Virus record (IMG/VR): IMGVR_UViG_3300028866_000027
Location: 1 to 21,561 of that record
Reading direction: 5' to 3' (one strand)
Source of the DNA: a virus
DNA length: 21,561 nucleotides
Shown here: positions 1,207 to 11,313 of the stretch, piece after piece
How positions within the stretch are numbered: the first letter of the stretch is position 1
Layout: every line of letters starts with the position of its first letter
The notes under the pieces: model-generated
Seen by the model: only the letters and a program-made list of their open reading frames with translations
The model's database searches: none
What the model was told of the DNA's origin: nothing
Position numbers and translations under genes: made by a program

Positions 1207-2601
1207 ATGAGCGTTCAAATGATGGGCGCTGTGATCAATTGCGGGCCGCAGGACAGGACCCAGTTCTGTGTGATGATGGCCCTGGCGAACTACGCCGACG
1301 ACTTCGGTTTTGCGTACCCGTCGATCGAAACCATCGCCGCGAACTCGCGTTGCGACATGCGCACGACGCGGCGGCAGATCTCGAATTTGGAGGCTGAGGG
1401 TTGGCTCTATTGCGCCCGAAAAGCGGTAGGCGGCAAGTCTAACGCCTACATTTTGAACATCGGCAAGATAGGGGTCACAGTGCCCCCTAATGGCAAACGT
1501 AGCCCTTTGTTTCTAAAGCTTTACAAATCGTTAGGGGTCACCATGACCCCTATTTTCGCGCCAGAGAAGTCAGAGGGCACCGTGCCCTCTGAACACCTAA
1601 AAAATGACGATTTCGACGAAAACTCAGAGGACATTGGCGACTTTTCAGAGGACAATCCACAGCCCCTCACAGGTCAGGATGAACAGAGTCAGAGGACATT
1701 TGAGGGGGGTTCAGAGGACATAGCTTGTCCCCCTAACCGTTATAACCGTCAAGAACCGTCAGGAACCGTCAGTTTAGAACCACCCACCCTACCCTCCCGC
1801 GGGGAGGGTGCAGTTCAAACCCCTTCTCCCGCCGAGACCGGCCCTGACCCCGGCAAGCCGGCAGCTAGGCCTTGGCCGAAGTTCATCGCGGCGCTGAAGA
1901 GCCAGATGTACGACATCCCGATCGGCGTCGAGACCGGGAAGCGCTGGAAGCAGGTCAAAAATGGCGAACACGACTTTGTGGCGTGCTTCAGCGGATGGTG
2001 GCTGGAGCAAATGCAGCGGAACTCCGCAGGGATAACGTTCGTCACCTTCGCCGAGGACGAGGCCGCGACCGAGGCAGGGATTGCGAAGTATCGCAAGCGG
2101 CTAACACGCCTGCTGGGCGAGTTTTTCGATCTGCCTAAAAACGAGCCGGTGAGCTTCAAAGTGCTGCGCGCTGAAGAGGCGCAAAAAACAGCCCCTGTCC
2201 CACACTGGGACAGAGGCCTCACCAACCCAGCTCCAGACGCGGGGTTGGAAGCGGCTTTGTCCCACAGTGGGACAGAGCCCGCGGAAAGACCCCTCTCCAA
2301 CGGCGAAATACCGGCCTCGGATAGGGAGGCTTGGGAGCAAGTGCAGCGTCTCGCGAAAGAGCACCTGGAACGGATCGCGAAAATGAACCCCGGCATCCGC
2401 CGGGAGTGGATCGAACAGGCGGTCGAGCCTGCGGAGCTGGAGTCGGTCGAGGGCGTGAACGGCAAGCGGCTATGGAAGCTGCGTTCGCCTGCGCCGGAGA
2501 CGACGCGCGTGGTGATAAATCTGCTCGGACGCCAAGCCATTCGCAAAGTCGCCGGCGAAGTGGAGATCGTGGTGGTGGGCCCCGAAGGCGAGAGCCCGTG
2601 A
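1207..2601 (+). CDS. Putative phage replication initiator with N-terminal winged helix (lambda O-like organisation)
   Basis: This 464-aa protein starts at ATG 1207 behind GAGGGG (1195-1200). Residues about 8-85 form an HTH_36-type winged helix: helical AQ/MMALANYADDFGFAYPS, recognition part TIAANSRCDMRTTRRQISNL, then the wing WLYCARKAVGGKSNAYIL. A long polar linker follows (about 88-215). Its DNA holds palindromes, half-sites and four AACCGT repeats. A second globular part spans about 220-315 (KFIAALKSQM...FSGWWLEQMQ), then another linker with two more palindromes, then a C-terminal piece. An initiator gene that contains its own origin repeats is the lambda O arrangement. It sits directly upstream of parA. 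The initiator call rests on the wHTH plus the embedded repeats; no helicase or primase motif is seen. A large DNA-binding regulator is the alternative. Confidence 0.7.
   Translation: MSVQMMGAVINCGPQDRTQFCVMMALANYADDFGFAYPSIETIAANSRCDMRTTRRQISNLEAEGWLYCARKAVGGKSNAYILNIGKIGVTVPPNGKRSPLFLKLYKSLGVTMTPIFAPEKSEGTVPSEHLKNDDFDENSEDIGDFSEDNPQPLTGQDEQSQRTFEGGSEDIACPPNRYNRQEPSGTVSLEPPTLPSRGEGAVQTPSPAETGPDPGKPAARPWPKFIAALKSQMYDIPIGVETGKRWKQVKNGEHDFVACFSGWWLEQMQRNSAGITFVTFAEDEAATEAGIAKYRKRLTRLLGEFFDLPKNEPVSFKVLRAEEAQKTAPVPHWDRGLTNPAPDAGLEAALSHSGTEPAERPLSNGEIPASDREAWEQVQRLAKEHLERIAKMNPGIRREWIEQAVEPAELESVEGVNGKRLWKLRSPAPETTRVVINLLGRQAIRKVAGEVEIVVVGPEGESP
1469..1809. other. Candidate replication origin: palindromes, half-sites and iteron-like repeats inside the initiator gene
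   Basis: Visible elements in order. 1469-1489: palindrome with 10-nt arms (TAGGGGTCAC / GTGCCCCCTA), one mismatch, 1-nt centre. 1532-1552: perfect 9-nt arms TAGGGGTCA / TGACCCCTA around CCA. 1570-1592: perfect 11-nt arms beginning TCAGAGGGCAC around one C. Four direct copies of TCAGAGGACA at 1624, 1645, 1689 and 1711. Four AACCGT units at 1735, 1744, 1754 and 1764, the last three extended to AACCGTCA, so about one helical turn apart. 1791-1809: 8-nt arms ACCCTCCC / GGGAGGGT around GCG. The set falls in the low-complexity linker of the wHTH protein, where protein constraint is weak. Origin function is inferred by analogy with lambda ori within O; autoregulatory operators are the alternative. 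Confidence 0.55.
2195..2279. repeat. Second pair of palindromes in the initiator gene (GTCCCAC/GTGGGAC type)
   Basis: Two inverted repeats lie 39 nt apart in the second linker. At 2195-2213 the arms are CTGTCCCA / TGGGACAG around CAC. At 2253-2279 the arms are 13 nt (GGCTTTGTCCCAC / GTGGGACAGAGCC) around one A, with one mismatch. They share the TGTCCCA half-site. They differ from the upstream palindromes, so they may be bound by a different protein or a different domain of the initiator. Confidence 0.7.
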
Positions 2602-2680: not shown

Positions 2681-3322
2681 ATGATCGTGAGCGTAGTGAG
2701 CGACAAAGGCGGGGTGGGCAAAACCATGACGGCGGTGCATCTGGCCGCATACCTGCAGGGCCTGGCACCGACGCTGCTGCTGGACGGCGACGATGTGCAC
2801 AACGCGATAGCCTGGTCGAAATGCGGCGAAGGTTTCCCGTACAAAGTGGCGCCCTTCGAGCAGGCGGCGAAGTTGGCGGCCAATTACAAACACATCGTGA
2901 TCGACGTTGGGCAGCGGCCCGGCAGCGCTGGCCTCGAAGCCGCCGCAGATGGTTGCGATCTGCTGGTGGTGCCCACCACCCTGGGCGGCCAGGCAACCAA
3001 CGGGCTGGGGCAGACGGTGCGCGCGCTGCAAGCGATCGGCGCCGATTTCCGAGTGCTGCTGGCCGCGGTGCCTCAGTACAAGGCCAAGGAGGCTGCCGCG
3101 CTGCGTAACCTGCTTACCGAGTCCCACGCGCCGGTTTTCGACGGCGAGATCCCGCGGCTCGAAGTCTTCCAGAAAGCGGAGACGGCGGGCTGCATCGTGT
3201 GCCAGGTGAAAGACCCCGCGGCCGACCGAGCCTGGGAGTCTTACGTGAAGATCGGGCGCCAGCTCACATCCATGGGGATCTTGTACGCGCCCGCTGTAAA
3301 AGACACGGCGGTGCGGGCATGA
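2681..3322 (+). CDS. parA: ParA-family partition ATPase
   Basis: This 213-aa protein starts at ATG 2681 behind GAGGAGG. It has the deviant Walker A of ParA/MinD ATPases near the N-terminus (DKGGVGKTMTAVHLA, residues 8-22, signature Lys9 and P-loop Lys14). The LLLDGDD strand follows (Asp35/Asp37), then the Walker B/switch strand HIVIDVGQRP with Asp75. It is short, with no N-terminal HTH, matching small type Ib ParA proteins that work with a ribbon-helix-helix partner. Such ATPases bind nucleoid DNA non-specifically in the ATP state and move replicons through a partner bound to centromere repeats. The stop overlaps the start of the partner gene as ATGA. Repeats on both sides support true segregation; an orphan ParA-like regulator is the alternative. 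Confidence 0.88.
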   Translation: MIVSVVSDKGGVGKTMTAVHLAAYLQGLAPTLLLDGDDVHNAIAWSKCGEGFPYKVAPFEQAAKLAANYKHIVIDVGQRPGSAGLEAAADGCDLLVVPTTLGGQATNGLGQTVRALQAIGADFRVLLAAVPQYKAKEAAALRNLLTESHAPVFDGEIPRLEVFQKAETAGCIVCQVKDPAADRAWESYVKIGRQLTSMGILYAPAVKDTAVRA

Positions 3323-3630
3323 GCGATCTGAAATCGGCTGGCCTTACCAAGTTGTTCGCGGGAATCAAGCAGGCGCAGGAGCCGGAGCGCGCAGGCGGTA
3401 CTCAGGGTACTCGGATCGCTCAGGGTACTCGCGGCACCCAGCCGGGGCCGAGGCTCGCGCCGCTGCCTTCGCAGGCGACGGCGAAGAGCAAGCATCCGGA
3501 GTACAAAGCTGTGAAAGTCTTCATGCGGCGTGAAAACCATCGAGCCGCGGCCCGCAAATGGAGATACGACGAGGGCGGCGACTTCAGCGACCTGGTGGAT
3601 CACCTCGTCGAGCAGTATCTGCACACCTGA
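3319..3630 (+). CDS. Ribbon-helix-helix partition partner (ParG/ParB-like), downstream of ParA
   Basis: This 103-aa protein is coupled to parA through ATGA (3319-3322). The first 60 residues are flexible and contain a short repeat (GGTQGTRIAQGTRGTQ) encoded by the 9-bp DNA repeat unit. Residues about 60-101 fit a ribbon-helix-helix fold: a strand (YKAVKVFMRRENHRAAARKW), a turn, then helix FSDLVDHLVEQYL. A disordered N-terminus plus a C-terminal RHH dimer is the architecture of ParG-type centromere-binding proteins, whose N-terminal arm stimulates the ParA ATPase. Size, order and coupling all fit type Ib partition. The specific family cannot be named from sequence alone, so no gene symbol is given. 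Confidence 0.7.
   Translation: MSDLKSAGLTKLFAGIKQAQEPERAGGTQGTRIAQGTRGTQPGPRLAPLPSQATAKSKHPEYKAVKVFMRRENHRAAARKWRYDEGGDFSDLVDHLVEQYLHT
3397..3430. repeat. Internal GGTACTC repeats in the partition partner gene
   Basis: GGTACTC occurs at 3397-3403, 3406-3412 and 3424-3430, spaced 9 and 18 nt, so the reading frame is kept. Its reverse complement GAGTACC is the core of the repeats upstream of parA (TGAGTACC at 2643-2650). The motif family therefore continues through the operon on the other strand. Confidence 0.65.
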
Positions 3631-3698
3631 GGTGCCTGAGGTACCTTTTGCAGGCGGTCGCTGCGTTAGGTACTTCAAGTACCCGGCGCACCTGAAAG
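3624..3698. repeat. Downstream ACCTGAGG / GTACTTCAAGTAC cluster, candidate partition site
   Basis: After the partner gene lie CACCTGAGGTG (3624-3634, inverted with one-base centre), GCCTGAGGTACC (3634-3645), the 15-bp inverted repeat with arms GGTACTT / AAGTACC (3669-3683) and ACCTGAAAG (3690-3698). The 13-mer GTACTTCAAGTAC (3670-3682) matches GTACCTGAAGTAC upstream of parA (2646-2658) at 11 of 13 positions. The last unit touches the ribosome site of the next gene. Together with the upstream cluster it brackets the ParA operon. Confidence 0.6.
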
Positions 3699-4314: not shown

Positions 4315-4702
4315 AACAACCCTAAGCTCGGAAGCGAAGAAAGAACTGGCCACGCTGATCGTCGCGGCTCTTTACGCCAGCTTCGATGTCGCGATGCTTG
4401 AAGGAAGTGCAGTTTATGAACGAGGCGCTGACCGAGTTGATCGAGCAGAGAAAGGCGGAGCAATGCAAATAGAGAGCGGGTACCACGAATCGGAAGACGG
4501 AAAGACGATCACGCTGGGGGTGACGTTTACCAGGGAAGAGTGGGAGCGCTTCGTGCTCCTGTTGGGTATGGCCGCAGGCGTGGTGCGCCGCGAAGACATG
4601 AACGAGGTGTTCTGGGAAGGCATCCGCCTGATCAACAAGATCATGGAGGGCAACCCGCACTGGCATCCCTTCTGGACACCGGAAGCGCAGGTGAAGCCGT
4701 GA
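4301..4702 (+). CDS. Phage protein of unknown function, possibly two coupled units
   Basis: The ATG 4301 start lies behind GGGGAGGAG and overlaps the previous gene. The 133-aa product has a helical N-terminal part (SEAKKELATLIVAALYASFD). Its second half starts at an internal ATG at 4463 with GGCGGAG upstream (MQIESGYHESEDGKTITLGV, then FTREEWERFVLLLGMAAGVV). In another frame, ATG 4416 behind AAGGAA opens an 18-codon frame (MNEALTELIEQRKAEQCK) ending at TAG 4470-4472 just past that internal ATG. The real arrangement could therefore be three small coupled genes rather than one. Stop TGA 4700-4702 overlaps the next start as GTGA. Function unknown. Confidence 0.6.
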   Translation: MLVAETTLSSEAKKELATLIVAALYASFDVAMLEGSAVYERGADRVDRAEKGGAMQIESGYHESEDGKTITLGVTFTREEWERFVLLLGMAAGVVRREDMNEVFWEGIRLINKIMEGNPHWHPFWTPEAQVKP

Positions 4703-9852: not shown

Positions 9853-10088
9853 AAAAGCCACGTATGAAGTCCCCCATTCACGCGCCCATCAAAATCACCT
9901 GGCGCAACTACCCCGACTCGCTCCACGCGCCCTTCAAGCGGCTGCCGTGCGGGCAATCTTTGCGCCCAAACCTCAAAGTCATGGAAGACTACGTCGCGGG
10001 ATCGAGCGTCGCACGCGCCATCGTCGCGTCGTGGAATCCAGCGCTTTTTTATGCTCGGCTCATCAGGGTCGAAGAGTTGGCGGCCTGA
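9849..10088 (+). CDS. Small phage protein of unknown function
   Basis: This 79-aa basic protein starts at ATG 9849 (ATGA coupling) and ends with TGA 10086-10088, overlapping the sigma-factor start as TGATG. It contains PIKITWRNYPDSLHAPFKRL and a helical end VARAIVASWNPALFYARLIR. No motif is recognised. Tight coupling to the sigma factor suggests co-regulation and possibly a related role such as an anti-sigma or adaptor function, but nothing in the sequence proves it. Confidence 0.6.
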   Translation: MKKPRMKSPIHAPIKITWRNYPDSLHAPFKRLPCGQSLRPNLKVMEDYVAGSSVARAIVASWNPALFYARLIRVEELAA

Positions 10089-10807
10089 TGCGCGAGCCAG
10101 CCATGACCGCAGCGGAGCAAGCATTGGTGATCGGAGGCATGACCGCTGTCAGATGCTTGGCGTTCAGCATGCATAAGAAGATGCCGCAAACAGACCTCGA
10201 CGCCCTGCTGTCCGATGCCTCGTATGGAGCCATAGAAGCTGCCAGGCGATTTGAACCGGGCAGCTCGACGTTCACAACGTTCATGAGGGGCCGCGTAACT
10301 GGCGCCATGCTGGATGGCATACGCGAGAAGGACTGGTGCTCGCGCGTGGCCCGTAGCAGAGGCAGGAAGATGGCCGACGCAGAGCAACTACTTACCCGAA
10401 AGCTACAGAGAGACCCTGAAGATGAGGAAATCGCAGCCCTGCTGGAAGTGAGCCTGGTAGACCTGCACCAGTTGAGGGAAGATCTGGCGCGATCGTATGT
10501 GTTTGACCTGGACAAGCCTGGCCGCATAGACGAGAGCGGTGACGAAGTGGACATAAAAGCCACCGTCGCCAGCCAAGGGGAAGACCAGCTGGATCGCGTG
10601 ATCAGGATGGACTTCGCAGACAAGATGATGGAGGCCGTGGCCCTGTTGTCTATTCGTGAGCAAACGATTCTCAGGATGCGCTTTGAAGACGACATGACCC
10701 TGCGCGAGATCGGCCTGGTCCATGGTGTGTGCATGGCACGAGTGGGTCAGATACTGGCCAAGTGCGTGGTGAAGCTGAGGAAGAGCCTGAGGGGGTTGGC
10801 GGCATGA
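10088..10807 (+). CDS. Sigma-70 family factor, FliA/SigB-like three-domain architecture
   Basis: This 239-aa protein is coupled to the previous gene (TGATG). Region 2 spans about residues 36-85 (DLDALLSDASYGAIEAARRF, then STFTTFMRGRVTGAMLDGIR), with the aromatic/charged -10 recognition helix ending REKDW. Region 3 is about 86-135 (RKLQRDPEDEEIAALLEVS). Region 4 is about 180-235 (LSIREQTILRMRFEDDMTLR, then EIGLVHGVCMARVGQILAK). No region 1.1 is present, so it is an alternative sigma of the group 3 (FliA/SigB) type. It lies upstream of the HNH/terminase/head genes and is a strong candidate for a late-gene sigma. It is followed by a second sigma factor through ATGA. Confidence 0.85.
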   Translation: MREPAMTAAEQALVIGGMTAVRCLAFSMHKKMPQTDLDALLSDASYGAIEAARRFEPGSSTFTTFMRGRVTGAMLDGIREKDWCSRVARSRGRKMADAEQLLTRKLQRDPEDEEIAALLEVSLVDLHQLREDLARSYVFDLDKPGRIDESGDEVDIKATVASQGEDQLDRVIRMDFADKMMEAVALLSIREQTILRMRFEDDMTLREIGLVHGVCMARVGQILAKCVVKLRKSLRGLAA

Positions 10808-11313
10808 CGCGCGGCCGACTGCAAGCATCCTTTGTCGCTTACAAAGCCGGCGAGCTGAGCCTGGACGGCATGATTCTGGAGTCACGCGCGTTCGCCGTGA
10901 GTGTTGGCCGCCTGGAAGGCCGCGAGGATGCCGAGGACCTTGCGCAGGAGGCGTGCATCCAGGTCTGGAAACACATTAACGGGTTCGACGGCCGCCATGC
11001 GAGCTGCGCGACCTGGCTTCGCAAGATTCTCCGCAACCTGATCCTCGACAAGGCCCGCCATGCGCGGTCAGTCCTGTCGGATGCCAGAATCGTCGAAATG
11101 CTCGAGCAGGAACTTGCGCGCGACGACTCAGACGATTCCCCGCGCAGGGGCATGAGCGATTTGCCGCCCGTCTGGCTGACTGTAGATCAGCTTGACCTGG
11201 TGGGCGCGCTGGTGGACGGCGCGGAGATGCGCGACATCGCGGAAGCAACCGGCCTGAGCCTGGGCGCCGTGCGCGCTCGATTCGACCGCATCAAGGGGAA
11301 GTGCCGTAGATAA
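10804..11313 (+). CDS. ECF-type sigma-70 factor
   Basis: This 169-aa protein starts at ATG 10804, coupled as ATGA to the upstream sigma gene. Region 2 is clear: GREDAEDLAQEACIQVWKHI, then GFDGRHASCATWLRKILRNL with ILDKAR (residues about 39-85). After a Ser/Asp-rich linker comes a short region 4 with the helix-turn-helix EMRDIAEATGLSLGAVRARF (about 141-160). This is the two-domain plan of ECF sigma factors, though the region 4 lead-in (VWLTVDQLDLVGALVDG) is atypical. No membrane anti-sigma gene adjoins it, so control differs from host ECF systems. It may act after, or compete with, the FliA-like partner. Confidence 0.8.
   Translation: MTRGRLQASFVAYKAGELSLDGMILESRAFAVSVGRLEGREDAEDLAQEACIQVWKHINGFDGRHASCATWLRKILRNLILDKARHARSVLSDARIVEMLEQELARDDSDDSPRRGMSDLPPVWLTVDQLDLVGALVDGAEMRDIAEATGLSLGAVRARFDRIKGKCRR

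Follow-up and report, generated by a model that had tools for sequence, protein, structure and literature searches.

A probable lambda-type replication origin inside the initiator gene of a tailed phage, with a phased array that may serve in melting or loading

Why is the linker of a phage DNA-binding protein packed with palindromes and phased short repeats, and is it the peptide or the DNA that is conserved there? The question is raised by the gene at 1207-2601 of the window (the whole virus record that was analysed, 21,561 bp), whose repeats an earlier note had put forward as a probable origin of replication. Judged from sequence and family comparisons, these repeats very probably form a lambda-type intragenic replication origin. 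The phage that it would serve is, with the same high confidence, a tailed one; terminase and major capsid genes lie downstream of the initiator gene.

The initiator gene and its repeats

The 464-aa product of the gene matches replication initiation O-like families (PHROG 391, E=2.2e-15; PHROG 1032, E=7e-15; also 11896 and others), and a Pfam scan of the protein gives HTH_36 only, above cut-off, with no Rep_3/RepA-type initiator domain. The first 86 residues of the protein, in an alignment with 23 relatives, are confidently predicted to fold as a winged helix (wHTH; mean pLDDT 91, pTM 0.81), and the closest solved folds in the PDB are MarR regulators and centromere-binding proteins, none of them below E=0.001. 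The earlier description of a winged-helix, lambda-O-like initiator is thus supported by both fold and family. A ParA-like gene follows, and a family search of the window recognised no helicase-loader gene adjoining the initiator. The features of the locus are as follows.

1207-2601, plus strand: lambda-O-like replication initiator gene, host of the proposed origin (464 aa; PHROG 391/1032/11896, Pfam HTH_36)
1207-1464, plus strand: N-terminal winged-helix DNA-binding domain (AlphaFold pLDDT 91, pTM 0.81)
1469-1489, no strand: palindromic iteron 1, TAGGGGTCACAGTGCCCCCTA
1532-1552, no strand: palindromic iteron 2, TAGGGGTCACCATGACCCCTA, with 9-bp perfect arms
1571-1591, no strand: palindromic iteron 3, CAGAGGGCACCGTGCCCTCTG, inside an 11-bp perfect-arm palindrome at 1570-1592
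1624-1633, plus strand: iteron half-site TCAGAGGACA
1645-1654, plus strand: iteron half-site TCAGAGGACA
1689-1698, plus strand: iteron half-site TCAGAGGACA, in a codon frame different from the other copies
1711-1734, no strand: half-site TCAGAGGACA opposite a degenerate half TGTCCCCCTA, an imperfect palindrome (pairing read from the sequence)
1735-1772, plus strand: phased AACCGT array, local form of the conserved GAACCGTCA element, proposed unwinding or ssDNA-loading element
1791-1809, no strand: GC-rich inverted repeat 3' of the array, arms 1791-1798 and 1802-1809, not conserved in relatives
2196-2212, no strand: second-cluster palindrome TGTCCCACACTGGGACA
2258-2274, no strand: second-cluster palindrome TGTCCCACAGTGGGACA

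The repeats first noticed (the palindromes, four TCAGAGGACA copies, four AACCGT units and a final inverted repeat) are all present where they had been placed. They fall into two DNA classes, the palindromic iterons (1469-1734) and the AACCGT array (1735-1772): the palindromes and AACCGT units stand as distinct kinds, but TCAGAGGACA does not, as palindrome 3 reads TCAGAGGGCAC-C-GTGCCCTCTGA and TCAGAGGACA is its half-site. Exact copies of the half-site start at 1624, 1645, 1689 and 1711, with spacings of 21, 44 and 22 bp (about 2, 4 and 2 helical turns), and allowing at most one mismatch gives 6 matches against 1.1 expected, a number that none of 100 shuffles reaches. The large palindromes, all three, stand in the same codon phase, and the TCAGAGGACA copies lie in phases 0, 0, 2 and 0. 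The AACCGT units start at 1735, 1744, 1754 and 1764 (spacing 9, 10 and 10 bp) in codon phases 0, 0, 1 and 2, that is, in all three frames, and even three such phased units are expected 0 times by chance. The mixed frames of AACCGT and TCAGAGGACA point to selection acting on the DNA.

The same follows from 2000 rounds of shuffling in which protein and codon usage were held constant. Between 1465 and 1775 there are 23 direct 8-mer repeats against a shuffle mean of 2.8 (maximum 16) and 27 inverted 8-mers against 4.6 (maximum 26), counts reached in none of the 2000 rounds, so that the density is indeed beyond what coding would produce, as had been claimed; at 9 and 10 bases, the inverted count is equalled in 1 and 30 of the 2000 shuffles. 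Since the repeats exceed all or nearly all shuffles and occupy several codon frames, the DNA rather than the peptide appears to be conserved, and because the copies lie in different frames, synonymous mutations can probe the role of the DNA without much change to the protein.

A second palindrome pair (2196-2212 and 2258-2274), overlooked at first reading and expected 0 times by chance, lies outside the canonical linker. These near-perfect 17-bp palindromes, TGTCCCACxGTGGGACA, fall in the part of the gene that encodes the C-terminal half of the initiator and differ in codon frame; on the minus strand, the one at 2196-2212 also has a terminator-like stem score.

As regards the genomic setting, record IMGVR_UViG_3300031524_000058 (30,640 bp) is nearly identical to the window and circularly permuted, and the two combine into a circular map of roughly 36-38 kb. 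The window lacks 41 bp at 4401, the other record carries about 1.5 kb more near window position ~6700, and the remainder is nearly identical; the initiator gene is 100% identical in this second copy of the phage, which makes a test of variation uninformative. Just 5' of the initiator gene, a related wHTH ORF (111 aa) occupies 816-1151, and a 42-bp leader, 76% identical, precedes both this ORF (779-820) and the initiator (1170-1211), which suggests a duplicated gene start or a common regulatory site. Elsewhere in the window, two different sigma-70-family factors are encoded by adjoining ORFs (10088-10807 and 10729-11313).

Variable iterons and a constant array in relatives

Are the repeats peculiar to this phage? 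A GGGGTCACCATGACCCC search of viral contigs returned the near-identical record and otherwise unrelated intergenic or coding sites, so the iterons are lineage-specific; single-protein scans gave only the same phage or no match. In a first set of relatives (Vibrio, Klebsiella, E. coli, Microcystis, Psychrobacter, Arthrobacter, Microbacterium, Pantoea and Proteus), O-like genes from phage and plasmid or chromosome records carry repeats directly 3' of the wHTH, as judged by eye. The iterons differ by lineage: Vibrio and Psychrobacter phages have GTGACAnnnTGTCAC, enterobacterial ones a TCAAAATCTGA type and Arthrobacter a GGGGTGnC type. In several cases a second set of short repeats comes after them, for example GAACCGTCCTT in Arthrobacter phage TaylorSipht, GAACCTATCAAT in a Psychrobacter phage and GAACCAGTCA in Vibrio phage D77. 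In relatives with the array, genes next to the initiator include those for P-like loaders, DnaC-like helicase loaders or DnaB-like helicases.

To avoid circularity, an unselected set was drawn with the wHTH profile alone from 1,429 genomes of five phyla; it gave 89 loci, of which the 67 that were non-redundant and in which the gene runs on for 200 nt or more beyond the wHTH were kept. Significant DNA repeats (p<0.01 against codon shuffles) occur in the first 240 nt of the linker in 72% of these genes (n=67), against 1% for the wHTH and 9% for the next 240 nt of the same genes. The intragenic-origin layout is thus found in the majority of an unselected sample that spans several phyla. Repeat arrays, whose absence from close relatives would have spoken against the original proposal, are present at the corresponding protein linker, with iterons of different sequence. 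Iterons together with a conserved GAACC array are common in the wHTH initiator family, which overturns the view that several unlike repeat classes in one array are unusual.

Among all 1024 5-mers, GAACC ranks first for recurrence at 9-13 bp (22 of 51 non-Bacillota genes, the best unrelated 5-mer, CCCCC, reaching 4), and 23 of the 51 non-Bacillota linkers contain a pair of GAACC units separated by 7-20 bp, against a shuffle mean of 1.2 (maximum 5 in 200 rounds), with none on the antisense strand of the 51. Pair spacing in the unselected genes is mostly 11 and 12 bp, the consensus of the unselected set is GAACCGTCA with weaker, A/G/T-rich spacers, and 20 of 26 arrays have units in more than one codon frame. 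In relatives, the array follows downstream of the iterons and reads in the sense of the gene; its sense strand is rich in A and poor in T (34% versus 15%), and on average it coincides with the least stable 30-bp stretch (61 genes). Bacillota relatives have no GAACC, and carry at the corresponding position A-rich repeats with a period of about 14-15, as judged by eye and from a rough count of periods.

A blind search of 2.9 million viral contigs with the pattern GAACCGTC-N(1-5)-GAACCGTC-N(1-5)-GAACC found at least 120 stretches. Among the 120 matches listed, 73 lie inside an ORF matching the wHTH profile, always in gene sense; in 36 of the remaining 47 the units are spaced by a multiple of 3, most of these being exact 12-bp tandem repeats, and several of the last 11 are contig-end fragments resembling truncated initiator genes. 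The matches listed include 34 non-redundant viral clusters, with spacings of 11 (25), 12 (20), 10 (5) and 13 bp (2), where the pattern permitted only 9-13, and with units in the three codon phases 52, 21 and 17 times. A stricter pattern with the first spacing set at 11, run on 84,980 genomes of bacteria and archaea, matched at 36 loci against about 0.5 expected in random sequence by our own estimate; 20 of them are in wHTH genes of Pseudomonadota, Actinomycetota and Verrucomicrobiota, and most others are exact 11-bp minisatellites. The simple DNA pattern can therefore indicate origins in uncultured phages and prophages. The open-access literature that we searched does not describe a GAACCGTCA array conserved across phyla next to variable iterons, and papers containing GAACCG, GAACCGTC or GAACCGTCA concerned primers or unrelated work, so the conserved array is probably new.

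A hairpin after the array was considered as a third conserved element and rejected as a general one: the longest stem is 6.5 against 5.8 in codon shuffles, and significance is reached in 10% of genes, equally 10% at +210. The final inverted repeat of the earlier note is real at 1791-1809, but it is not shared by relatives.

What might the array do? By analogy with lambda, where the melting region has the corresponding position, we infer an unwinding and/or ssDNA-loading element. In its general form, the proposal is that wHTH phage origins have in the phased GAACCGTCA array a conserved element that acts sequence-specifically in melting or loading and corresponds, in phages, to the DUE/DnaA-trio elements of bacteria. 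It would remain recognisable in phages and prophages of Pseudomonadota, Actinomycetota and Verrucomicrobiota as the iterons diverge and would work with different helicase-delivery systems, the AACCGT array being one instance; we put the chances of this at about even. The occurrence of P-like, DnaC-like and DnaB-like neighbours argues against one particular loader reading the array, and the GAACC form may be the version, in GC-rich lineages, of a more general phased element.

Alternatively, the initiator or a host protein could bind the GAACC/AACCGT array as double-stranded DNA, and the helical phasing of these further sites would serve to extend the nucleoprotein filament. Its spacing near the helical turn (10-13 bp, mostly 11-12, and 9-10 bp in the window) and the well-defined GAACC motif would suit such sites, whereas its place at the local stability minimum and at the position of lambda's DUE would not, and because the array is common to phages with differing iterons, wHTH domains of different specificity would have to read one site. 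We consider this possible but rather doubtful; it concerns the second element alone, and the origin reading would stand. Which protein, then, reads one constant sequence beside ever-changing iterons?

The origin and competing explanations

In the origin reading, the wHTH domain would bind the palindromic iterons as dimers and form an O-some-like complex, which would strain the adjoining AACCGT array (1735-1772) until it opens; the initiator, or the helicase loader that belongs to it, would then keep hold of the exposed strand, and the replicative helicase would be placed on it. Some observations, among them the composition checks proposed in the earlier note, count against an origin here. The cumulative GC-skew minimum lies 3.5-5 kb upstream of the array on the composite map, and the skew is only loosely compatible with an origin at the array and not decisive. 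The array of the window is not AT-rich (47% GC at 1720-1779, with an AT-richer 60-bp window at 1600-1659), though over 61 genes the array lies on average at the local stability minimum. No helicase-loader gene was recognised beside this initiator, where ParA follows, though loaders or helicases adjoin it in relatives.

Palindromic sites of wHTH proteins are often operators, and replication initiators can autoregulate. Could the palindromes then serve the wHTH protein in repressing or attenuating transcription through its own gene, with replication starting elsewhere? The related wHTH ORF at 816-1151 just upstream would fit, but the sites lie 260-560 bp within the coding region, a consensus scan of 600-2700 found no promoter-like site, the family carries a replication-initiation annotation, relatives adjoin helicase loaders and helicases, and the directional GAACC array would be left unexplained, all of which makes an operator function improbable.

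A partition (centromere-like) site of the ParA system after the gene is less probable still. It is suggested by the ParA-like gene at 2681-3322 and by the wHTH centromere-binding proteins among the top structural neighbours; however, GTACCTGAG-type repeats, a separate family, flank parA and fit a partition role better, and relatives of like layout adjoin replication genes. The candidate partition locus proper (2681-3630) comprises the ParA-like gene and a 103-aa ORF (3319-3630) with no family match, whose tail looks ribbon-helix-helix-like by eye, and GTACCTGAG/CTCAGGGTACTCG repeats at 2620-2672, 3397-3431 and 3623-3695 flank the two; such a locus would suggest a phage-plasmid lifestyle.

That the repeats are simply coding, a low-complexity peptide linker (EPS-EPS, GVTMTP) selected as protein, is hardly credible, for although a single codon phase is common to the three large palindromes and GAACCGTC in its commonest frame reads EPS, AACCGT, TCAGAGGACA and the 2196/2258 pair each occur in differing frames, frames are mixed within one array in 20 of 26 unselected relatives, and the codon-usage-preserving shuffles reject it.

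Comparison with known origins

A lambda-style origin within the initiator gene is textbook knowledge for a few phages. In oriLambda, P22 gene 18 and the Stx phages, as proposed for the locus in the window, the origin lies in the linker of the initiator gene after an N-terminal DNA-binding domain, and palindromic iterons lead, on the same side, into a phased and A-skewed region that melts easily, a property that the array of the window may share. The lactococcal phage TP901-1, which has a mapped origin, offers a similar picture when read directly, with linker repeats TTTTCCAGATGTGG and then a phased A-rich tract; it differs in its DnaD-like protein, its low GC content, and a unit ACAAAAYACTGA with a period of about 14-15. 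More generally, the classical origins (lambda, P22 and TP901-1) have at the array position phased A-rich repeats with a period near 14-15 and, like the Bacillota relatives, show after their iterons repeats such as ACAATACC and ACAAAAGACA, with a period often of 14-15 rather than 11-12.

Two other systems are more distant. In P1 repL/oriL, an origin is postulated within the initiator coding sequence, as here, and function suffers from synonymous changes to an A/T-rich stretch inside it (PMC9948254), but the element is an unrelated one. In bacterial oriC, the short repeats of the DnaA-trio/DUE, next to initiator boxes, mark where the strands open (PMC10797057). The GAACC array likewise adjoins putative initiator sites; however, its GAACCGTCA unit recurs at 10-13 bp in relatives and at 9-10 bp here, with no 3-nt periodic repeat of the DnaA-trio type, and the initiator is a wHTH phage protein rather than DnaA.

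The closest model remains lambda, where O dimers occupy four inverted-repeat iterons inside gene O and an A+T-rich region of 40 bp next to them is opened (PMC5043065). The O protein of the in-frame deletions ori95 and ori96 in that region still complements (PMC6022878), which points to a role of the region as DNA in cis. Compared with oriLambda, the window has iterons of unrelated sequence, with half-sites in addition to three full sites, and in place of a 40-bp A+T-rich tract it has an AACCGT array of ~47% GC; no P-like gene is recognised beside the initiator. Lambda-type intragenic origins with iterons are already known, and in that respect the phage described here would be a further member; the GAACC array occupies the position of the lambda melting region, and the part usually called just 'AT-rich' contains, in GC-rich lineages, a short conserved GAACCGTCA code repeated about one helical turn apart.
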